48,483 bases of DNA from Deltaproteobacteria bacterium (GCA_031264145.1 JAISEK010000170.1:1-48483); one strand, 5' to 3'; positions 37,301 to 48,374 are shown, counted from the stretch's first letter. Notes: a model not told the origin generated them from the sequence alone. Numbers and translations are program-made.

Positions 37301-38077
37301 GGCCTGGCCGAGGGCGGCCGCCTGCTGATCCGGGGCCCCAACATCATGCTGGGCTACCTCAGCAAGGACAGGCCGGGGCAGGTCGAGCCCCTGGTCGACG
37401 GCTGGTACGACACCGGGGACATCGCCCAGGTCGACCGGGACGGCTTTCTCTGGATCAAGGGACGCTACAAGCGCTTTGCCAAGATCAGCGGGGAGATGGT
37501 CTCGCTCTCGGCCATCGAGGATGTCGCCAGGACTGTCTGGCCGGAACTGCCTCTGGCCATCCTGGCCATGCCCGACCAGCACAAGGGCGAGCGGCTGGTC
37601 CTGGTCCACCAGGGGCCGGGCGGGATTGACCTGGCCCCCCTGCGCCAGGCCATCATCAAGGCCGGATTCACGGAACTGTCCTACCCCAGGCTGTCCCTGG
37701 CCGTCCCGGACATCCCCCTGACCCCCCTGGGCAAGGCGAACATCCCCGCCCTGGCCGAGGAGGCCGCCAGGCTTCTGGAGGCCGGCGAGGGGCGGGCCAG
37801 GAGCGTCCCCCTGATGCCGGCCACCGATGCCTCTGGCCCCGAGGAGCCAGTCCCCGGGGGGCCTGGCGCGTCCAGGCCTGTCGGACTGTCCGGCCTTGGC
37901 CTGCCCCATGGGGCCCCCTTGGCCAAAATCGATGACCAGCCCGTGGCCGAGGAGGGCGCGGGGCTACGGGAGGCCGCCGGGCCCCAGGACCGACCGGAGG
38001 CCCCCGGCCCGAAAGGGCCAGGCGTCGAGGACCCCCTGGCGGACTGGGCCAGCAGGCCAGGGGAGGATCGGGACTGA
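34385..38077 (+). CDS. aas: LplT-PlsC-acyl-ACP synthetase fusion (Aas-like)
   Basis: Lysophospholipid salvage enzyme in one chain of 1230 residues. Residues 1 to about 410 form an MFS transporter related to LplT, with about 12 helices and SLAGQLSDRHHKS after helix two. An inner-membrane acyltransferase follows with NHLSFAD (H-x4-D) near 462-468 and FPEGRLNQTG. The AMP-binding acyl-ACP synthetase has LFTSGSEGVPKG near 796 and YDTGD further on. The last 75 or so residues are low-complexity P/G/A and lie outside known domains. By family knowledge it flips 2-acyl-lysophospholipid inwards and re-acylates it using acyl-ACP. ATG 34385 is chosen because GGAG lies 6 bases upstream and MNIFTRI begins the transporter; the frame is open further back to 34097 without a start signal. 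Confidence 0.92.
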   Translation: MNIFTRIIIKRDFWPLFGSMALGAFNDNFMRQAIISMLAFGSLNLTAAQRSIWGSLATALMVLPFFLFSSLAGQLSDRHHKSTVVKGTKLFELAIMCLAGALFIFGQLDGLFFVLFLMGAQSAFFGPVKYGLLPEVLEERDLIAGNGLFSGATFLAIVLGTMFGSYLVTTSVGPRILMPIGLVSVALLGYILAWLQPRSRQADPGVRVDPLLWRSTYAILKSVKDQRGIWLAILSISWFWAMGSILLTQMPVLAATVMGAKPVVNTVLVTLFALGVAAGSLLVNRLTRGNVTAALVPGSAALLTVLMLALGHAVKTLPPAGGLSLGLREFAASPHHLLVGLLCLAVSMVGGVFVVPLNAFLQHQAEAGQRARVIAANNIMNSLFMVAGSLAVMLLVKLGLSIAHVFLLVGLSAMVVTVLTIYFLPETALRQIVRIVLSIVYRPRVRGLENLEPFMKGSALIIPNHLSFADVALLVAYIPRSLTFAIDSFRAQSWWIKLFMNVYKAIPINPSQPMAARDLIAALDRGDMLVIFPEGRLNQTGSIMKIYDGAGLVAAHCGCPVIPVILEDLEYTRFGRLRALRLNRPRRLRIRMTVLPQASLGEPIGASESRRDYRRRVTANIYSIMVESTYRCRDVRVNVYRALEAAARRFGHGRTIIEDDSRKSMTYGGLLRASRVLGRYLADLPGLGQNVGLLLPNANPLAVLLFGLWAGGRVPVMLNYSQGPRNIRLAVETANVSTVITSRRFVEAGKLDALLDDLPAAVLFLEDLRLSFLDKLRGLLWRPRPGRPDDPAVILFTSGSEGVPKGVALSHANMVSDTWQARTIVEIHEDDVFFNPMPSFHAFGLNVGLVLPLILGLRLYLHPSPLQLKVIPERIYDTKSTVIITSDSFAQAWGEAAHQYDFHRVRLILVGAEKLKEKTFDLYFRKLGVRLFEGYGVTEASPIVAVNTHMWNRFGSVGHIIPGQEWRLEPIEGLAEGGRLLIRGPNIMLGYLSKDRPGQVEPLVDGWYDTGDIAQVDRDGFLWIKGRYKRFAKISGEMVSLSAIEDVARTVWPELPLAILAMPDQHKGERLVLVHQGPGGIDLAPLRQAIIKAGFTELSYPRLSLAVPDIPLTPLGKANIPALAEEAARLLEAGEGRARSVPLMPATDASGPEEPVPGGPGASRPVGLSGLGLPHGAPLAKIDDQPVAEEGAGLREAAGPQDRPEAPGPKGPGVEDPLADWASRPGEDRD

Positions 38078-38080
38078 GCC

Positions 38081-39409
38081 ATGGTGCAGAATGGCCCTGG
38101 CCCCCCCGCAATCAGGGCAGTCGTCTATCGGGACCCTGATTTCCCGTCGGTCCTGTCCGGACACCGGCCCAGCCCCCTGGGGCCCTTGTGTCTGGAGACG
38201 ACCCTGGCCGACCTCGGCCGGATCGTCGAGGAGGTCCTTCTGGGCCTGGCCCAGGCGGCCAGGGCCCTGTGGCCAGACTGGTACTGGCCTCCGGCCGTCC
38301 TTTGGGCCGACTTGGCCGAGGCGGCCGGCGACCCGGCCAGGGCGTCCAGTGCCCCAAGGCTCATAAAAGGGGTTGACAAGGCCTGGCACGCCCTGGTCCT
38401 GGAGGCCATGCTCAAGGAAGGCGGCCTGCCCTTCTTCCCGAAAATGAATCTCGGGACGCAGGCCAGGCAGCTGAGCCTGGCCGTGGGACAGGCCATCGGG
38501 GCGTTCCATGTCCTGGTGCCCCCTTCCCTGGGGCCACCTGAGGCTGGCCTTGGCCTGGTCAGGGGGGCCGAGTGGCTGTCCAGGGAGACTTCCGTGGACC
38601 TGGCCGTTTTCCTGCCCGAGGAACTGGCCGGCCACGAGGTCTTTGGCCCTCTCCTGTACAGGGCCTTCCATTACCGGCCAGGGGAGAAAATCTGGACCCG
38701 TTACTGGGACCAAGGGCAGTGCCGCCCTTGCCCTCCCGTGGTCCCTGGTCCCGCCGGGCGGGGACCCTCGGTTGGCGGCCCCGGGCCTGGGGGGCTCTTG
38801 GCCAGGGAGGGCGGCCAAGGCGGAGAACGGCCGGGTTTCCCGGCGATGGCCGGTCGGCCCGTCCGGCCAGGGCCAGGCTACCCTGGGCCAGCCAGTGGCC
38901 CAGCGCCCCTCCCTGGGCCGGTGGACCTGCCGTCCCGGCGGCCGGGCCTTTTCGGGGAAGACGTCCCGAAGGTTGCCTCCGCTGGCCCTGGGTTCCCAAT
39001 TGAGGGCCTGCCCCACCCGGCCAGCCCCATAGAGAAGATGCTGGCCAGGTCGCTGGAGCTCGATGGCCGCCTGAGGGGCCTTTTCCTGTGCAACCAGCTG
39101 ATCGAGGCCCGGGGCGAGACCTTGATGGTCGACTTTTACTGGCCCAGGGGCAAGCTGGTGGTCGAGGCCGACGGCTACGCCTTCCACAGAAGCCATCTGG
39201 CCTTCCGGAACGATCGCTATCGGGACTTTCTTCTGACCGTCACCGGCCGGACCGTCCTCCGGCTGACCGGCTACGACATAAGCATGGATCTTCCGGGCTC
39301 CCTCGGCCGGATATGGGAGACTGTCAAGTTCGTCTCCAGGCGCGACGGCCTGGATCCTGGGCGGCAGGCTTCCGCGCCTGGGCCAGGGCCAGGCCCCATG
39401 GGGGAATGA
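38081..39409 (+). CDS. Protein with C-terminal DUF559-like nuclease domain
   Basis: A 442-residue protein. Residues 1-210 form an unrecognised domain (DKAWHALVLEAMLKEGGLPFF, then SVDLAVFLPEELAGHEVFG). Residues 211-312 are a low-complexity P/G linker. Residues 315-420 match DUF559/Vsr-like endonuclease domains: SPIEKMLA, MVDFYW with D351, VVEADGY with E362 and D364, then FRNDRYRD and VLRLTGYDI. The catalytic D-ExD pattern is intact. The ATG lies 3 bases past the aas stop with GGAGG upstream, so it may be translated by coupling. DUF559 proteins are thought to nick or cut DNA; the substrate is unknown. The following gene starts 165 bases downstream on the same strand. Confidence 0.75.
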   Translation: MVQNGPGPPAIRAVVYRDPDFPSVLSGHRPSPLGPLCLETTLADLGRIVEEVLLGLAQAARALWPDWYWPPAVLWADLAEAAGDPARASSAPRLIKGVDKAWHALVLEAMLKEGGLPFFPKMNLGTQARQLSLAVGQAIGAFHVLVPPSLGPPEAGLGLVRGAEWLSRETSVDLAVFLPEELAGHEVFGPLLYRAFHYRPGEKIWTRYWDQGQCRPCPPVVPGPAGRGPSVGGPGPGGLLAREGGQGGERPGFPAMAGRPVRPGPGYPGPASGPAPLPGPVDLPSRRPGLFGEDVPKVASAGPGFPIEGLPHPASPIEKMLARSLELDGRLRGLFLCNQLIEARGETLMVDFYWPRGKLVVEADGYAFHRSHLAFRNDRYRDFLLTVTGRTVLRLTGYDISMDLPGSLGRIWETVKFVSRRDGLDPGRQASAPGPGPGPMGE

Positions 39410-39574
39410 TCCTGGCCTGGACGGAATCGCCGCTAAATTCACCAGGTGTCTAGGCTAATGGCCAGACTGGACTGGTTTCATGGGTACATTGTTTGGGCAA
39501 GACCCGAAGATGGACTTGCCAGCCTGGCCATCACCGGCCAAATGCCGTCTGGCCATAATGATAGAGGATGAAAA

Positions 39575-40312
39575 ATGGATCCGAGCCTTTCCAACAGGAA
39601 CAGGACCCAGCTCTGGTGGATACACGTCTCCAAGGGAGCGGAGTGGTCCGAACTGGTCAAGCCTGGCTTCAATAACGCCGGCGAGCGCGATCTCATGATT
39701 GAGGCCGGCCTTCTGTCGCTTTCCAAGGAAATCCCGGAAGCGGTGGACAGGAAGAGATTTAAGGCCCCAAAGCCCGCCGCCTCGAAGCCAAAGGGGCCAT
39801 CGCCGCGCTCCAAGCCCAGGCCCAGATACCGTCTTGCCCTGACGCCAAAGGGGCGCGAGTATCTTTGGGGCCATCTGCCCGAACCAGGCAGCGAGCTTAC
39901 GCACAACATCGGCCCGATACTTAACTTTGTCCTGGAGGCCCTGGGCAAGGTCAAGGCCGGGCAGATGGGACTGGCCGAGGCCCTTGGGCTGGGACCTCCG
40001 GACCATGGGGCCGTGGTACCGGGGGAGCGCCAGGAGCCAGACAAGACGCATGGGCCGGGCGAGCTTCTCGGGCATATCAAAGGCCTGGGCCCCACCCAGT
40101 TCATGGCTGGCGGCGGCCTCAGGCTCTGCGTCCTCAGGAAGTCGTTGCCTGGCTGGACCAATGATTCCATCGACCAGGTCCTGCTCGGCCTGGAGAGGGA
40201 CGGGGCCATAGTCCTCTACCATTTTGACGATCCCTCGCGGATCACGGCCGAGGACAAGGAGGCTGCCCTCCATGTGGCCGGCCATTCCAGGCATTACTTG
40301 TATTTGAAATAG
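39575..40312 (+). CDS. Hypothetical protein, possible winged helix
   Basis: A 245-residue protein. It begins NRTQLWWIHVSKGAEWSELV; a K/P-rich segment (63-84) follows, then RYRLALTPKGREYLWGHL, which has the look of a winged-helix wing and helix (YxLTxxGxxxL). The second half (VLRKSLPGWTNDSIDQVLLGLERDGAIVLYHFDD) also resembles a winged-helix half ending in a beta hairpin. AGAGG lies 8 bases before the ATG. Its stop is 80 bases before the double-ATPase gene, the same arrangement as accessory subunits of ATPase systems. I do not recognise a named family; a DNA-binding or adaptor role is inferred. Confidence 0.7.
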   Translation: MDPSLSNRNRTQLWWIHVSKGAEWSELVKPGFNNAGERDLMIEAGLLSLSKEIPEAVDRKRFKAPKPAASKPKGPSPRSKPRPRYRLALTPKGREYLWGHLPEPGSELTHNIGPILNFVLEALGKVKAGQMGLAEALGLGPPDHGAVVPGERQEPDKTHGPGELLGHIKGLGPTQFMAGGGLRLCVLRKSLPGWTNDSIDQVLLGLERDGAIVLYHFDDPSRITAEDKEAALHVAGHSRHYLYLK

Positions 40313-40333
40313 TATTTTAAATAATTATATAAA
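40304..40333 (+). promoter_or_regulatory. Weak promoter candidate before the double ATPase
   Basis: TTGAAA (40304-40309) and TATATA (40328-40333) lie in an 80-base AT-rich gap overlapping the end of the previous gene. The gap is conspicuously AT-rich beside GC-rich genes. Confidence 0.3.
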
Positions 40334-40391
40334 TAAATACATTTTTTGATTTTATAAATTGTTTGCAATGTAGATTTTAAAGAGGATTTTA

Positions 40392-43300
40392 ATGCAGAAA
40401 AAATCAGATGGCAAGGATATCAATGAGCTTGATGTTATCAAAAATATAGATTTTTCCCATTGGATCCGTCTTGACAACGTCTGGGATGCCATCACGTGGG
40501 ACGTGCCGCAGGCCAATGCCGACATAAGGGACCTGTTAGGGCGCAGGCTGGACGAGCTGTCGGGCGAAAGGCAGGGCGCCAGCTCAGGCCTGGCGATAAT
40601 AGGGCATGGCGGGACAGGCAAGACCCACATGTTGTCCCATTTGCGGCAAATGACGATGGAAAGGTCCGGCTACCTGATCCTGACCGACATGACCAACGTC
40701 AGGGACTTCTGGGACACCCTGGCCTACCATGCGGGTCTTTCCCTGGAACGGCGGGGCTTTGACGGGCAGTGCCAGAGGATAAGCCTGGCCCAGAAGATCG
40801 CCCGCGTCGCCGGGCAAAGGGATCTCGAGGATCCGGATTCGTTTTTTTCCGGGGCCAAGCCCGAGGACTACGCCGACCTGGCCGAGAGGATTTACAAGGG
40901 CCTGTTCAGGCTGTACCGCTTCCAAGCCCAGGAATACCAGGATCTCATAAGGGCCCTGCTGCTCTTGAACTCAGATGTCCCCGAAATCCTGAATGACGGC
41001 AAGTATTGGCAGTCAGCCGACAAGGGCATGGGGGAGGAGGCGACGAAATATGGCTTCATGTTTGACAGGATCAAGAACAACGAATGGTTCATGCTCGGCC
41101 TGAGCTGGCTCTTTTCCGTTGACGGCGGCTTCTCGGTCATGGCCTTCGACCAGCTGGACTCAACCGTGAAATACAACTCCCTCAGGGCTGACACGGAGGA
41201 AGAGAGCGAGGCCAACAGGAAGATACTGATCTCCGTCAGCAACGGCTTCAGCACGCTCATAAGCAAGGCCCACTCTTGCCTGACCGTGTCCACTTTTCTG
41301 GCGGACAGCTGGGATATCCTCATTGAGAAGGCCATGAGGACCGACATGGCCCGGTTTGACCGCCCTCACTATCTGTCCCCCATCGAGTCAGGCGGGTTGG
41401 CCAGACAAATCCTGAAACGCCGCCTTGACGCGGCTTTCACGAAGACTGGCTTCGACCCGCCTTACCCGACTTGGCCGTTTCCGGAAAGGGTATTTGGCGG
41501 GTTCGTGTCCATCAGTCCCAGGGAAATGCTCCAGAAGGGCGAGGACCACGTCAAGGCCTGCATAAGCCTTGGAAGGGTTTTTGAGTACGGCGGTGAGCCA
41601 GTCGTAGTCGAGGGCACATCGGTTCCAGGTCCACCCGACAAGTTTAGGGAAATTGAAGACTCGTTCAATGGTATGCTTGGGGAAAACGACGTCGACGCAT
41701 TGAAAAGCGGCCACGCCGAGTCCTGGTTTTGGCCCAATTCCCTGGCATTGCTGTCTGAGATATTCTCTAAGGTCGTGGAATTGGGAAAAGATCAGGAACT
41801 CGTCATAGGGGACGACAGCCGCCCTCTGTCCAAAAGCTATCGCTCGTTCGCCTTTTTCCGCCATTACCACGTGAAGGGGGAGGCCCCGGATCGCTGCCTT
41901 AGCCTCTGGGCCATACTGCACGACAACGCCAAGGCCTTCCAGGCCCGCCTGAGCACTGCCCTCTCCCAGTCGGGAATCGACAAGGACCTCAGCAGCCGGC
42001 GTCTGGTGGTCGTTAGGTTCTTCGACCCTCCCTCCGGCCAGGTCACGTCCAGAATCGTCCAGAGATTCAGGGAGAACAAGGGCATTTTCCTTGACATGCC
42101 GGATCAGGACCTGCGCGCCTTGCAGGCCCTTAACGGGCTTTCGGAGAAATTCGGCGGCCTGTTCATGGAATGGGCCGTCTGGCGCAAACCGGTCTATCTG
42201 CTGAGGTCCATCGCCCCGCACCTGGAGTGGCTGCTGAACAAGGCCCAGGGAACCCTGTGGTCACCCATGGCGGGCCTGCCAACAGCCGGCCTGTCCCAGC
42301 CGCCAACCATTTTGGCCCGGCCGTTAATACCCGCAGCCCAGACGCCAATCATTTTGCCCCAGAATCCAGCCACCGTCCTTGTAGCTAGACAGTTAACACA
42401 CCTAGCTCAGACGACAACCAATTTAGCCCATGACTCAGCCGTCGAAACGCAGCTGACGGCCAGTGTTGGGCCACCGCCAACATCTGTAGTTCGGCTGACA
42501 GCCACTGTGAAGCAGCCGCCAACAGCGCCGGCTTTGCCGGGGACGGATGGTTTGCTGATAGGCCAATTTCCGTCCCGAGATGGCATTGTCCGGCTGGCCA
42601 GCGTGAAGGCCGACGATCTGACGAGACACGTGGCCATCTTTGGCGGCACCGGTTCCGGCAAAACGGTCCTCATGCGCCGTATCGTCGAGGAAGCGGCCTT
42701 GGCCGGGGTCCCGTCGGTCGTGATAGACATATCCGGCGACCTGTGCCTTCTGGGCCAGTCCTGGCCTGCGCCTGAACCAGGGACCTGGCTGCCGGGCGAC
42801 GGGGACAGGGCGGCAAGGTATCTGGCCGGGACCGAGACCGTCGTCTGGACGCCTGGCATCAACAAGGGCAATCCCCTGAGGTTCCCAGTCATTCCCGACC
42901 TGGTCGCCCTCCGCCGGGGCGGCGACGTCGACAGTCTCGATGCCGGCATCGCCATGGCCCGCGAGGCCATAACGGCGGCTATCCGCCTCAAAATCACCGC
43001 GAAAACCCTTCCCAAGGAGGGCGTCATCTCCAGCGCCCTCAGGCGCCTGTCAGCCTATGAGAGGGATTCAGGGCCGACCCTGATGGACTTCGTCGAGCTT
43101 CTTGAGGACATGCCAGACGAGGCCATCGAGGAATTGGGGGACGGCGCCAGCAAGACGGCCAGGGCCATCGCCAAGGACCTCAGGAGCGCCATGAGCGTGG
43201 ACCAGGATCTCAAGGAGGAATCGACCGCCGACATCGCCGGCCTTTTCCGGGGCCGTGGCGGCCGGACCAGGATCTCGGTCGTCAACCTCTTGGGCCTGGG

Positions 43301-43805
43301 CCAGGAGGATGAGCGGCCGGCCTTCGTCCAGAGGCTGGTCATGAACATGTTTTCCTGGATGACCCGGAACCCTGGCAAGGGTCTGGCCGGGCTTCTGGTC
43401 ATCGACGAGGCCAAGGACTTCGTTCCCTCCCAGAATTCCACCCCGCCCAAGACGGTCATCCAGAGGGTGGCCAACCAGGCCCGAAAATTCGGCTATGGCC
43501 TGATCCTGGCCTCCCAGGCCATCAAGAGCCTTGACAGCCCGACGGTCAACAACTGCTCTTCAGTCTTCATCGGTCGGCAGTCGTCGCCCAGCAATATCGA
43601 CGCCTGCCGGACAGCCTGGGGGATTTCTGGGGTGGAGAAGCTCGGGAACGGCCAGTTTATGTGTATCTCCCCGTCACTGGGCGGCATGAGGGACAAGCCG
43701 GCCACCATCGCTTCGGCCATGTGCCTTAGCCGGCACCCCTCCCCAGCCCCATCTCTGGAGGAAATTATCGAGATTGCAAGAAAGAGCGCCGACATGATCC
43801 GATAG
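40392..43805 (+). CDS. Double P-loop ATPase, second module HerA-like
   Basis: A 1137-residue protein with two separate NTPase modules. Module one has Walker A GHGGTGKT at 71-78 and a Walker B candidate FSVMAFDQLD near 247-256, as in AAA/STAND-type ATPases. A low-complexity linker (about 623-716) with repeated AQTP-IL-type text follows. Module two has Walker A GGTGSGKT at 751-758 and Walker B LLVIDEAKDF at 1001-1010; then come QARKFGYGLILASQ and NCSSVFIGRQSS, a layout typical of HerA/DUF87 DNA translocases. AGAGGA precedes the ATG. HerA-like proteins pump DNA and often pair with nucleases in repair or defence; here the neighbours are a possible winged-helix protein and a DUF559-like nuclease. 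This architecture does not match a system I know. Confidence 0.82.
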   Translation: MQKKSDGKDINELDVIKNIDFSHWIRLDNVWDAITWDVPQANADIRDLLGRRLDELSGERQGASSGLAIIGHGGTGKTHMLSHLRQMTMERSGYLILTDMTNVRDFWDTLAYHAGLSLERRGFDGQCQRISLAQKIARVAGQRDLEDPDSFFSGAKPEDYADLAERIYKGLFRLYRFQAQEYQDLIRALLLLNSDVPEILNDGKYWQSADKGMGEEATKYGFMFDRIKNNEWFMLGLSWLFSVDGGFSVMAFDQLDSTVKYNSLRADTEEESEANRKILISVSNGFSTLISKAHSCLTVSTFLADSWDILIEKAMRTDMARFDRPHYLSPIESGGLARQILKRRLDAAFTKTGFDPPYPTWPFPERVFGGFVSISPREMLQKGEDHVKACISLGRVFEYGGEPVVVEGTSVPGPPDKFREIEDSFNGMLGENDVDALKSGHAESWFWPNSLALLSEIFSKVVELGKDQELVIGDDSRPLSKSYRSFAFFRHYHVKGEAPDRCLSLWAILHDNAKAFQARLSTALSQSGIDKDLSSRRLVVVRFFDPPSGQVTSRIVQRFRENKGIFLDMPDQDLRALQALNGLSEKFGGLFMEWAVWRKPVYLLRSIAPHLEWLLNKAQGTLWSPMAGLPTAGLSQPPTILARPLIPAAQTPIILPQNPATVLVARQLTHLAQTTTNLAHDSAVETQLTASVGPPPTSVVRLTATVKQPPTAPALPGTDGLLIGQFPSRDGIVRLASVKADDLTRHVAIFGGTGSGKTVLMRRIVEEAALAGVPSVVIDISGDLCLLGQSWPAPEPGTWLPGDGDRAARYLAGTETVVWTPGINKGNPLRFPVIPDLVALRRGGDVDSLDAGIAMAREAITAAIRLKITAKTLPKEGVISSALRRLSAYERDSGPTLMDFVELLEDMPDEAIEELGDGASKTARAIAKDLRSAMSVDQDLKEESTADIAGLFRGRGGRTRISVVNLLGLGQEDERPAFVQRLVMNMFSWMTRNPGKGLAGLLVIDEAKDFVPSQNSTPPKTVIQRVANQARKFGYGLILASQAIKSLDSPTVNNCSSVFIGRQSSPSNIDACRTAWGISGVEKLGNGQFMCISPSLGGMRDKPATIASAMCLSRHPSPAPSLEEIIEIARKSADMIR
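42297..42429 (+). repeat. Degenerate 22-base repeats in the inter-ATPase linker
   Basis: Units CAGCCGCCAACCATTTTG.. (42297-42318), CAGACGCCAATCATTTTG.. (42339-42360) and CAGACGACAACCAATTTA.. (42408-42429) are spaced by 42 and 69 bases, both multiples of three. They encode the flexible linker and suggest growth by slippage. Confidence 0.6.
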
Positions 43806-44107: not shown

Positions 44108-45622
44108 ATGTTTCTACTGTCACTCGGCCACATCGCCTTTGTTTTATGCTTGCTGTTTGCCGGGGCGACGCAAGCGTATGCTTGTGCGACAACCTGGCCG
44201 GAAACGCTGTTCTTTGACGTCATTCCCGAAAAGTTGCTTGATGCGGATGTTATTGCGAAGGTCAGCTTGTTGACGGACGTATCTAAATACCCGAGTCCAG
44301 GAATGGAGGAGGAATTGGGGGCAGGGGCAGTAAGCGTCGTGCAGATTATAAAGACATCTGACGCCAGGCTTCATCCAGATGAAAAGATTGCGATAAAAGT
44401 CGATCCCATGACCTGCAGCTACATCGATCATGATAATGGAGACGAAGGAATCATCATTGCCAAAGCGAGGTCTGATGCCGAAGGTCGTCTGGTGTTGTGC
44501 CTGTACACGCGTAACCTTCTCAATCGCCACATTACACCGCCGTCCGCCTACGAATGTTTACCCGATGAAGTGCAGGCGACAGATCAAACCAGACTCGCGG
44601 CTGAAAAAGGGGATGCGAAGGCGCAAGTCGACCTCGGGTTGATATATGAGCGCGGCCACGAAGTCAGGAAGAATAATGAGGAGGCCATGAAATGGTATAA
44701 GCGCGCGGCGGAAAGTGGGGATGCGGCGGCGCAATGCATGCTTGGGCAGAGATATCTGCGTGAGGAGAACTGTGAAGAGGCGGTGAAATTGTTCGAGCTC
44801 GCGGCGGACCAGGGATATGTCTATGCGATGACCAGTATAGGGGATATGTACCGCGGCTGGGGCAAGTGTCTGGAAAAAAACGATGCGAAGGTGAGACAGT
44901 GGTACACGCGCGCTGCTGAAGGGGGGTATGATCTGGCTCAACTGATCCTTGGGCGGATGTACAAGAATGGTGAACATGGTAAGCGGAACGATGCGGAAGC
45001 AGTGAAATGGCTGCGATTGGCGGCGGCTCAGACAAATGCATACGCCGTATCCGAGCTTGAGGAGATGTATCGGAAAGGCCGGGGAGCTACGAAGAAAGAT
45101 GCGGATAAGAGCCACTGGCTACAGATCGCTGCGGAAAATGGTGATGTGAAGGCGCAATTGGAATATGGGCAGCAATGTTTGGTGAAATATCAAAACGACA
45201 GTAGCTGGAAAGACGTAAAAAACGTCGAAAATGTCAAAGAGGCAGCAAAGTATTACGAACTTGCGGCGGCCCAGGGCCATGTAGGGGCGATGTATAATCT
45301 TGGGAAGATATATTATGGATATGACGTGTGGGCGATTGATGAATCCATGAGGCTCCAGAATAAGGCGAAAGCGGTGGAATGGTTCACTCGTGCGGCTGAA
45401 CATGGGCATATATTCGCACAGTCTGAGCTGGGGCGGTTGTATCAGGAGGGGAGGGACGTTAAACAGGACGATGCGGAAGCGGTGAAGTGGTTCCGTTTGG
45501 CGGCGGCCCAGGGAGATCATCATGCCGCCGATCAGCTTAAAAAGATGTATCTGCAAGGCCGGGAAGCTACGAAGGACGATGCTAATGCTGATGCTGATGA
45601 GGCAAAGTTGTATTGGTTCTAG
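44108..45622 (+). CDS. Secreted Sel1-repeat protein
   Basis: A 504-residue protein with a signal peptide (residues 1-25, ending ATQAYA before C26). A 130-residue domain of unknown type follows (VIPEKLLDADVIAKVSL to LVLCLYTRNLL). From about residue 160 to the end there are eight or nine Sel1-like repeats (for example KNNEEAMKWYKRAAESGDAAAQCMLG and NDAEAVKWLRLAAAQ). Sel1 repeats are helical protein-binding scaffolds; a periplasmic or surface adaptor role is inferred. AAAGGAG lies 7 bases before the ATG. Base composition is clearly lower in GC than in the upstream block, suggesting later acquisition. Confidence 0.85.
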   Translation: MFLLSLGHIAFVLCLLFAGATQAYACATTWPETLFFDVIPEKLLDADVIAKVSLLTDVSKYPSPGMEEELGAGAVSVVQIIKTSDARLHPDEKIAIKVDPMTCSYIDHDNGDEGIIIAKARSDAEGRLVLCLYTRNLLNRHITPPSAYECLPDEVQATDQTRLAAEKGDAKAQVDLGLIYERGHEVRKNNEEAMKWYKRAAESGDAAAQCMLGQRYLREENCEEAVKLFELAADQGYVYAMTSIGDMYRGWGKCLEKNDAKVRQWYTRAAEGGYDLAQLILGRMYKNGEHGKRNDAEAVKWLRLAAAQTNAYAVSELEEMYRKGRGATKKDADKSHWLQIAAENGDVKAQLEYGQQCLVKYQNDSSWKDVKNVENVKEAAKYYELAAAQGHVGAMYNLGKIYYGYDVWAIDESMRLQNKAKAVEWFTRAAEHGHIFAQSELGRLYQEGRDVKQDDAEAVKWFRLAAAQGDHHAADQLKKMYLQGREATKDDANADADEAKLYWF

Positions 45623-46069: not shown

Positions 46070-46870
46070 GGAGAACATGGCTTAAAGGCTGGAACACGAG
46101 CCCAGTGCCTGGCGATCATGGCTTGAACCATGGCGCATGGACATACGGGGCAATCACCGAGATGGCCTTCACCGGTCTCAAAAAGGCGGTGGACGTCAGG
46201 GCCATGGGCGATTATCTCAAAAGGTGGGGTTCTCGCCGCAGAGGCCTATCAAGAAGGCCCACCAGCAGGATCCCAGGGAAGTCAGGGAATGGCTTGGCAA
46301 GACTTTCCTTTCCATAAGGAAACTGGCGAGACAAGCGGGAGGCTTCATTCTTTTTGCCGATGAATCCGTACAGCACACGGAAAACTTTGCCAAAATCATA
46401 CTCCCCCAAGGGCCAGACGCCAGTGGTCGGGACGACTGGCACGAGACTCCCGATGAACGTGATATCGCTCTCTCAAATGCTGGCCTGATGAGGAGCATGA
46501 CGTATTCGGGCACGATGAACTGCCGCGTCTTAATCAGGTTCGTGAGGAACCTTCTGAGATCAATCGACACGCTGAAGGTTTTTTTGTCGTGGACAATATT
46601 TGCGTTCACCACGAGAAATTTGCGCAAAAGTGGATACAAAAGCACGAAAATTGAATTCAGTTATTTTTCATTCCAAAGTATTTACCTGAGTTGAACCCAG
46701 ATGAGTCACTGAACAATGTCATAAAGCAGAGATTGAATCTTCTCCCATGATCCAAGACAAAAGATAAAATGGCGGCTCCCCTGAGGACAATACTTGGCGA
46801 CCAGCGAAAATCTCCGGGGTTGATCGCGAGACTGTTCCTAAAGGACGAGACCAAGTATGCCGTGAACTGA
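46070..46870 (+). pseudogene. IS630-family transposase, frameshifted
   Basis: Reading across frames gives a recognisable IS630 transposase. First comes the N-terminal helix-turn-helix region (AVDVRAMGDYLKRWG, then FSPQRPIKKAHQQ). The first catalytic Asp lies in FADES, and NCRVLIRFVRNLL follows. A frame change near 46580 leads to the second Asp region (VDNICVHHEK), and the C-terminal YLPELNPDES supplies the Glu. The tail GDQRKSPGLIARLFLKDETK ends at a stop 46868-46870. At least three frame changes (near 46230, 46580 and 46670) and an internal stop at 46750 make it non-functional. Confidence 0.75.
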
Positions 46871-46978: not shown

Positions 46979-48127
46979 ATGCAAAAGATCGCAAGAGCGC
47001 CTTTGGAACGAATTACCATAGAAGGGTTCAAGTCGTTCCGCAACCTTAAAAATTTCGTCTTTAATCCAGGCCTCAATATCCTGATCGGCCCAAACGGGGC
47101 GGGAAAAAGCAATTTCATTGATTTTTTCCGGGTCATGGAGCAATTGTCCCTTAGAGGGCTAGCGGATTATGTCGGCCGATATGGGCGGGCGGAGACCTTC
47201 TTTTTCCAGGGCACGAAGACGACACGGGTCATCAATATCGAGATGGTCATTCTCGGCATGACGTATTCCTTCTCTTTGTTGCCGACGGTCGAAGGCAGGG
47301 TGGAGGTAAAAGGGGAATCCCTTTCTGGAACCAGGGATGATGGGTCCCGCATAGAAGGACCAAGGATTGGACCCAACACGAACAGGCCGGCTGAATCAAA
47401 CCTAGGCTCCCCGACTAGAGTCGGAGGGGTCGTTGATTCAAAGATACCGGAAAGGATGATTCTCGACGTCATTGCCGGATGGCGGGCCTATCATTTCCGG
47501 GACACGTCGCCGTTTTCCCCATTGCGGAAAGAAGCCTCCATTTTCAACTCCGGGGAACTATTCGCAGACGGCTCCAATTTGCCAGCTGTTTTGTGGGGCT
47601 TAAAGGCGAATCGCCCGCAGGCTTACGAAAACATAGTATTGTCCATGCGCCAGATTATGCCTGTTTTCGATGACTTCGTGCTAGAACCGGAACAAAGGGA
47701 CGCCACCCAGGATCGCTTCGTGCGACTATGCTGGCGCGAGCGGGGATCCCGTTATGTCTACCAGCCATGGCAGATGTCCGACGGTGCCTTGTGCAGCCTG
47801 GCCCTGGTGACGGTCCTCAGGCAACCAGACCCGCCACCCACCATCATAATTGATGAGCCTGAGCTGGGCCTGCATCCAAGCACCCTGGATTTCATGGTCG
47901 GACTGATGCATTGGGCATCCGAGAAAACACAACTGATCGTGGCCACCCAGTCCCCGGACTTGCTGCGGACCATGGAGCCGGAGAACGTCATCGTCGTCCA
48001 TCAACGTAACGGCGAGACGACTTTCGAGCGCCTTGAGCGCGAGCCACTGTCCGATTGGCTGAAAGAATACTCACTGACCGAGCTTTGGCTCAAGAACGTC
48101 ATCCGGACCGATCCTGATCATGTCTAA
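46979..48127 (+). CDS. OLD-like AAA ATPase (RecF/ABC type)
   Basis: A 382-residue P-loop ATPase of the AAA_15/AAA_21 group. It starts RITIEGFKSFRNL; Walker A is GPNGAGKS at 37-44. A signature-like QMSDGALCSLALV comes next, then Walker B TIIIDEPELGLHPS near 287-300 and VATQSPDLL (H-loop position lacks a clear His). These proteins sense or hold DNA ends and commonly pair with a TOPRIM nuclease gene. Here the stop overlaps the next start by 8 bases, and that gene resembles DUF4276 (TOPRIM-type). CAGGG lies about 8 bases before the ATG. A defence role is inferred. It follows directly on the IS630 remnant. Confidence 0.85.
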   Translation: MQKIARAPLERITIEGFKSFRNLKNFVFNPGLNILIGPNGAGKSNFIDFFRVMEQLSLRGLADYVGRYGRAETFFFQGTKTTRVINIEMVILGMTYSFSLLPTVEGRVEVKGESLSGTRDDGSRIEGPRIGPNTNRPAESNLGSPTRVGGVVDSKIPERMILDVIAGWRAYHFRDTSPFSPLRKEASIFNSGELFADGSNLPAVLWGLKANRPQAYENIVLSMRQIMPVFDDFVLEPEQRDATQDRFVRLCWRERGSRYVYQPWQMSDGALCSLALVTVLRQPDPPPTIIIDEPELGLHPSTLDFMVGLMHWASEKTQLIVATQSPDLLRTMEPENVIVVHQRNGETTFERLEREPLSDWLKEYSLTELWLKNVIRTDPDHV

Positions 48128-48374
48128 GCCAGATCTCATCGTCATCACTGAAGGACAAACTGAGACCAGGGCCCTGCCGGAACTATTGGCGACCCATCTG
48201 CGCGACTATGGCTGGGAGCCGGTTTTCACGACGTTCGGGACAACTCGCCGCCAGAAAGGCGGTGCCTTGCGATTCAAGACGCTGCTCAATGACATCAAGG
48301 CATCAGCCAAGCAATACGCCGGATGTTATATTTCAACGTTTTTTGACTATCACTACAGCGAACAGAAAACCTAA
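48120..48374 (+). CDS. DUF4276-like (TOPRIM-type) protein, apparently frameshifted
   Basis: The frame begins KPDLIVITEGQTETRALPEL and continues LRDYGWEP, then QKGGALRFKTLLND and YISTFFDYHYSEQ, matching the N-terminal half of DUF4276 proteins (EGxTE and FFDY blocks). It stops after 84 residues, far short of the usual 200 or so. From about 48350 another frame continues with sensible text (SNYHAKIATLERHFQNM) to the window end. A one-base indel between about 48345 and 48372 would restore the gene, so this is either a pseudogene or a sequencing error near the A run. It overlaps the AAA ATPase stop by 8 bases, and the two probably act together. Confidence 0.6.
   Translation: MSKPDLIVITEGQTETRALPELLATHLRDYGWEPVFTTFGTTRRQKGGALRFKTLLNDIKASAKQYAGCYISTFFDYHYSEQKT

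Follow-up and report, generated by a model that had tools for sequence, protein, structure and literature searches.

Three consecutive plus-strand genes, coding for a nuclease, a winged-helix protein and a double ATPase, raise the question of whether they constitute a single functional unit and, if so, against or upon which DNA such a unit might act. The window, i.e., the whole stretch of 48,483 nucleotides that was analysed, is one contig of a 4.0 Mb source genome comprising 198 contigs; among public genomes, its sisters are MAGs labelled 'Deltaproteobacteria', L052 (isolate Ct408_bin86) being one of them. The open reading frames were recovered exactly where a prior sequence-only reading had placed the three genes, and their products are here called NUC, WH and BIG:

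38081..39409, plus strand: NUC, 442 aa; conserved N-terminal region and C-terminal DUF559 (REase-fold) nuclease
38999..39334, plus strand: DUF559 nuclease core of NUC (residues 307-418)
39575..40312, plus strand: WH, 245 aa; N-terminal MarR-like winged helix (1-105) and a putative second, winged-helix-like C-terminal domain (about 160-245)
40392..43805, plus strand: BIG, 1137-aa double-ATPase protein
40425..41591, plus strand: AAA+ module of BIG (residues 12-400); Walker A intact, Walker B D-Q-x-D rather than D-E; BrxD profile match
41718..42026, plus strand: predicted inactive REase-like insert of BIG (residues 443-545), from model secondary structure and alignment columns
42033..42236, plus strand: winged-helix-like C-terminal end of the AAA+ unit of BIG (residues 548-615), by secondary structure only
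42273..42524, plus strand: Pro/Thr-rich disordered linker of BIG (residues 628-711; pLDDT <50)
42534..43781, plus strand: HerA/FtsK translocase domain of BIG (residues 715-1130); Walker A and B intact

An aas-like gene has its stop at 38077 and NUC begins just past it. The intergenic gaps are 165 bp between NUC and WH and 79 bp between WH and BIG, and what read as purine-rich, ribosome-binding-like sites precede both WH and BIG.

Domain architectures of NUC, WH and BIG

NUC is recovered by the Pfam DUF559 model with 25.8 bits (cut-off 20.6), and none of the active-site residues E318, D351, E362 and D364 changes in any of the 45 homologous stretches spanning them, in agreement with the intact DUF559-like core initially proposed for this gene. 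A Pfam scan of NUC, WH and further neighbours detected no NurA domain; likewise, it found neither DUF4297 nor SIR2 among the cassette neighbours, where DUF559 is present instead.

WH is without a Pfam match of its own, and 16 of its relatives give only scattered weak matches. Structure comparison with its AlphaFold2 model (pLDDT 86) identified the N-terminus as a MarR-type winged helix, the best match having a Z-score of 10.0 over 77 residues with an rmsd of 2.8; the winged helix that had been suspected here is thus borne out. The order of helices and strands in the C-terminal domain suggests a second winged-helix-like unit.

The model of BIG, which was built from 36 relatives (mean pLDDT 85), combines an N-terminal P-loop ATPase with a C-terminal HerA domain. 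The latter scores 50 bits against Pfam DUF87 (cut-off 23.2) and superposes on the solved HerA structure 4d2i with a Z-score of 29.9, which confirms that an AAA-type ATPase and a HerA-like translocase share a single 1137-residue chain. It also fits the structures of the anti-phage HerA-SIR2 and HerA-DUF4297 systems and of the DndH C-domain with Z-scores of about 20-30, and its Walker motifs are conserved among the relatives.

When the full BIG model was used for fold searches, HerA-type chains were the only ones retrieved, and a direct sequence search of its N-terminal part against solved structures gave no match. While D-E is the usual form of the Walker B motif, that of the AAA+ module of BIG is D-Q in about 104 of the 106 aligned stretches, suggesting that this unit binds ATP and hydrolyses it poorly. 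Profile comparison relates the AAA+ module to BrxC/BrxD-family proteins with 96% probability (E 5e-9, 309 columns), the corresponding value for the HerA domain of BIG, used as a control, being only 2.5%. BrxC belongs to the Orc/Cdc6 clade (PMC12839542), and extension from BrxC through the shared Pfam family PF10923 would place the AAA+ unit of BIG in the Orc/Cdc6 family. Further along the chain, residues 447-541 show in the model a helix-strand-strand-strand-helix-strand succession, which is the order of the restriction-nuclease core, followed by a helical/wing end. No D...(D/E)xK signature is conserved in this segment, and the two strands that would normally bear the catalytic acids show no conserved ones. 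Going by the strand order, residues 443-545 are predicted to be an inactive REase-like insert.

Linkage of the genes and exchange of the nuclease

Scanning one genome per species yielded at least 79 loci with relatives, and the complete AAA-HerA protein is present in 65 of those listed. The sample was set by two peptide patterns and is rich in actinomycetes, and the fractions that follow describe this sample among the matches listed. Both linkages that the sequence-only reading had put up for checking were found: WH adjoins the AAA-HerA gene in 57 of the 65 loci and NUC does so in 35, with the two present together in 30. When 81 AAA-HerA proteins were grouped at 50% identity into 28 clusters, WH was linked in 25 of these and NUC in 12, again among the matches listed. 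The gene order NUC, WH, BIG recurs across several independent phyla, far beyond chance, and consecutive cassette genes often overlap by 4 bp in several phyla, this being the typical spacing in actinomycetes. Exceptions in detail are one locus where WH lies 3' rather than 5' of BIG (L073) and another where it is concealed within a mis-called open reading frame (L100). Pairwise distances of BIG and WH are correlated with r 0.88, those of BIG and NUC with r 0.46. A distant branch (L104, L108, L111 and L118) presents NUC, a gene for 339-376 residues and then BIG; profile comparison of this middle gene with WH gave a non-significant 6.9%, while its position and size fit. WH and BIG, adjacent in 57 of the 65 loci, are the core of the cassette, in line with the notion that the last two genes may be the minimal unit.

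The same reading had allowed that NUC might belong to the aas transcript. We rejected NUC as part of an aas operon: its neighbours across several phyla are WH and BIG, and the local arrangements vary, with aas-NUC-WH-BIG in a sister genus (L042) and aas-WH-BIG devoid of NUC in the host genus itself (L040). Because NUC adjoins WH and BIG in several phyla, it belongs to the cassette, and aas is merely a neighbour at the site in this lineage.

As a member of the cassette NUC is exchangeable, being absent at some sites and replaced at others. In four actinomycete loci (L067, L079, L082 and L085) a relative of PDC-M02B occupies the place of NUC and directly abuts WH. In the three of these that were scanned (L079, L082 and L085) it is preceded by PDC-M02A, a DUF4365 protein, and L067 has the same two neighbour families. 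DUF4365 is a nuclease domain of short-Argonaute defence (PMC10810196). That PDC-M02B abuts WH-BIG suggests that the functional PDC-M02 unit can exceed its listed genes. In Mycobacterium peregrinum, the one genome checked in which WH-BIG is without an adjacent nuclease, a search elsewhere in the genome gave no convincing NUC. The gene 5' of WH-BIG reads as ferredoxin-reductase-like, an ordinary flank, in many Mycobacterium loci.

The components also diverge at different rates. When the Rhodococcus locus L093 was compared with L081, L088 and L105, the ribosomal neighbours were mostly 95-100% identical, BIG was 80% identical, WH 57-59% (two pairs) and NUC 52-53%, the values for BIG and NUC being taken over the whole open reading frames. 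Such values beside such conserved neighbours are as might be expected in an arms race.

Phyletic distribution and chromosomal sites

The AAA-HerA protein occurs in 32 of the 37 host-family genomes, in 29 with E <1e-30 and often in several copies, and nearly all other genomes of the host class or phylum are devoid of strong matches. It is patchy in one Mycobacterium genus (54 of 198 genomes) and present in 36 of the 37 genomes of one Rhodococcus genus. It was not found in phage records, and viral contigs give just distant matches to the HerA part. From plasmids it is nearly absent, with the best plasmid match sitting between ribosomal operons and looking chromosomal.

In several lineages, often in actinomycetes, the cassette occupies fixed chromosomal sites. 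Ribosomal-protein genes of the S10/spc operon flank it in Rhodococcus, Williamsia, Tsukamurella and Kitasatospora, the ribosomal identity of these flanks being annotated for Tsukamurella only and otherwise read from sequence. In Tsukamurella the junction (rpsQ to rplN; L155:4831-20897) additionally carries a VapB/PIN pair and a DEAD/DEAH helicase. The same site is seen in L055, L063, L072, L078, L081, L088, L093, L105, L114, L116, L124 and L128, and the junction looks like a recurrent actinomycete insertion site.

Elaborations of the basic architecture were also observed. In L031 (5253-18063), L033, L035, L036 and L037 the AAA-HerA and WH genes are accompanied by a paralogue of about 490-631 aa that has just the AAA/REase-like part and lacks HerA; such sets stand in tandem in L031, and there are several copies per host-family genome. 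A Gordonia locus (L064) has NUC-WH-BIG followed by a second AAA unit, while in Frankia and Pseudofrankia (L103:7989-12947, L106:7989-13208 and L112:7992-12836) the AAA-HerA protein is far longer, with extra sequence bringing it to 1614-1739 aa.

In the window, a gene for a Sel1-repeat protein (44108-45622) lies immediately 3' of the cassette, and a candidate HEC-01A ATPase gene (46979-48127; PADLOC E 1e-106) lies 3.2 kb 3' of it. Between the cassette and the latter is a short open reading frame with an HTH_33 winged-helix match (46137-46694), which is probably a decayed transposase, IS630-like by its sequence. An 84-aa DUF4276-like frame (48120-48374) seems to continue in another frame past an A-run near 48366, at the contig end, possibly reflecting a frameshift or an assembly error. 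The question of whether such cassettes lie in defence islands, which the sequence-only reading had posed, thus receives a divided answer: the HEC-01A candidate in the window speaks for it, but actinomycete cassettes are often at fixed chromosomal sites.

Proposed function and relationship to known systems

We propose that NUC-WH-BIG is a chromosomal anti-invader system that degrades DNA, a reading to which we assign a probability of about 0.62. WH and BIG would constitute its sensing and DNA-pumping core and NUC its exchangeable cutter. The two-winged-helix protein WH might recognize invading or replicating foreign DNA by one of its features and recruit BIG, whose Orc/Cdc6-type AAA+ unit, with its putative inactive REase-like insert, would then close on the DNA as a nucleotide-gated clamp. 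Given the D-Q motif observed in this unit, it could hold the DNA in the ATP-bound state. The HerA domain, with its clear fold and conserved motifs, would form a hexameric motor that pumps dsDNA, as can be expected from what is known of the HerA family. NUC, whose place a DUF4365 nuclease would take in some lineages, would receive the pumped DNA and destroy it; the conservation of the NUC active site and the observed swap are consistent with such a step.

Several observations favour a role in defence: the gene order with its 4-bp overlaps is kept in several phyla, the active sites of the nuclease and HerA are conserved, the cassette is patchy in Mycobacterium and, in the window, has a HEC-01A candidate downstream, and NUC is replaced in four loci by the PADLOC defence candidates PDC-M02A (DUF4365) and PDC-M02B. 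The proximity of the modelled HerA fold to those of the anti-phage SIR2-HerA, HerA-DUF4297 and DndH C-domain structures, and the rapid divergence of NUC and WH beside the ribosomal genes, point in the same direction. The architecture would, moreover, fit a class predicted to be anti-invader in the main text of PMC10853773. Against this stand the near-universal presence of the large gene in one Rhodococcus genus and its frequency in the host family, which are unusual for defence, its absence from phages and near-absence from plasmids together with the fixed chromosomal sites, and the many loci without an adjacent nuclease, such as those of many mycobacteria.

Some of these same facts would suit a machine for DNA end-processing or replication-fork repair comparable to HerA-NurA, with the AAA unit loading HerA onto breaks or stalled forks, where NUC would resect or cleave the DNA. 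The near-universal presence of the large gene in one Rhodococcus genus (36 of 37), the use of the S10/spc junction in several actinomycete genera, the high host-family prevalence and a HerA fold that is also close to HerA-NurA structures are compatible with this. Yet a nuclease that diverges fast and is missing or swapped does not behave as a repair nuclease, the scanned genes have no NurA domain, the Mycobacterium distribution (54 of 198) is patchy, and most relatives of the host in its class and phylum are without a strong match; we therefore hold a repair function to be unlikely. The frequent want of an adjacent nuclease could, on the other hand, mean that WH-BIG alone is one system, either a regulator or a DNA pump, and the nuclease an unrelated neighbour, as the 27 WH-BIG loci without detected adjacent NUC (among the matches listed), the BIG-NUC distance correlation of only 0.46 and the aas-WH-BIG arrangement of L040 might indicate. 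This appears quite improbable in view of the adjacency of NUC on the same strand, often with the 4-bp overlap, in several phyla, the distant branch of L104, L108, L111 and L118 among them, and of the replacement of an absent NUC by another nuclease. HerA/FtsK and Orc/Cdc6 ATPases are both found in replicon maintenance, and the tandemly arrayed paralogues of the host family (L031, L033-L037) could likewise evoke a chromosome or plasmid partition module or a domesticated mobile-element set, in which the DNA moved by HerA and processed by the nuclease would be that of the element itself. With hardly any plasmid copies of the cassette and none found on phages, and no integrase, relaxase or replication partner seen by eye among the neighbour families shared between genera, this is the least probable of the readings considered.

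Returning to the anti-invader reading, we tentatively suggest a machine anchored in the chromosome that serves immunity or guards the genome and differs from the HerA systems tested so far, namely a pump fused to a non-hydrolysing D-Q clamp of the Orc/Cdc6 type, held long-term as a near-core element at fixed sites, and offering a stable motor platform to a swappable, diversifying nuclease of the DUF559 or DUF4365 kind; this fuller picture is possible, though doubtful. If the anti-invader reading is true, a large group of bacteria, with Rhodococcus, Frankia, planctomycetes, many mycobacteria and termite-gut Desulfobacterota among them (the gut origin going by isolate names), carry an uncharacterised DNA-interception system that is currently annotated merely as DUF559, hypothetical and DUF87 proteins, as in the Tsukamurella record. 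The Orc/HerA capture class predicted in the main text of PMC10853773 would then gain a clear operon in culturable hosts, and with it a test of whether a fixed-sensor pump accepts different nucleases.

The expectation that the cassette fits no named system held against PADLOC 2.0 and NCBIfam (June 2026), neither of which has a named system matching it. The resemblances to individual systems are partial. DndFGH shares a HerA/FtsK translocase with a nuclease and a winged-helix partner, and the fold of its DndH C-domain (7es4) is matched with a Z-score of 26.7; however, the scanned genes have no DndF or DndG match and the PADLOC DndH model covers just the HerA stretch (E 9e-4). HerA-DUF4297 and HerA-SIR2 (Nezha) likewise place a HerA motor beside a gene for an effector enzyme, whereas the cassette pairs a DUF559 or DUF4365 effector with a motor fused to an AAA+ unit, and a winged-helix gene is nearly always linked. 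In PADLOC, the HerA part matches mad8 of MADS best (1e-19; 30 of 36 relatives), with coverage of only the motor; instead of the full mad1-mad8 set there are only the mad8-like HerA and a mad3-like ATPase that better fits HEC-01A. PDC-M02 is absent from the window and none of its models matches WH or BIG. The likeness to BrxC/BrxD of BREX is limited to the N-terminal AAA+, with Walker B D-Q rather than D-E, and the genes scanned in the cassette and 3' of it include neither PglZ nor PglX/BrxX. The HerA-NurA repair pair is close in its HerA fold, but the scanned genes include no adjacent NurA.

The closest counterpart is the 'HerA/FtsK capture' class, coupled to an Orc/Cdc6 ATPase, that is predicted as anti-invader in the main text of PMC10853773 (Rakesh, Aravind and Krishnan 2024). 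As described there, its domains are an Orc/Cdc6-type AAA+, an inactive REase before a terminal winged helix, a HerA/FtsK and an active REase, in one or several chains, with some members adding a multi-wHTH protein of 2-4 winged helices. The cassette is similar in having an AAA+ unit with the BrxC/BrxD profile match, a HerA motor and a putative multi-wHTH protein; the insert of BIG may, by its strand order, correspond to the inactive REase. NUC, with its intact active site, is a candidate for the active REase, for one family of which that text names AbiJ, and WH for the optional partner, with one winged helix recognized by structure comparison and another suggested by secondary-structure order. 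The main text names neither DUF559, which the cassette carries, nor DUF4365, found in some loci, and our literature search found no paper linking DUF559 with HerA. The main text describes the neighbourhoods as mobile, though it does not make this a requirement; the cassettes described here are chromosomal and often at fixed sites, with hardly any plasmid or phage copies, but are patchy in Mycobacterium. Because that text predicts neighbourhoods with this domain set, the cassette is not a new kind; of the initial claim that it is undescribed, the lack of a named system stands, while its domain set had been predicted in 2024. Judged from the main text of PMC10853773, it may be a variant of the predicted class, though this identity is not certain. 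What is new with respect to that class is the nearly invariant D-Q Walker B of the AAA module, along with the fixed chromosomal sites, the fast divergence of the nuclease and the tandem paralogue arrays.
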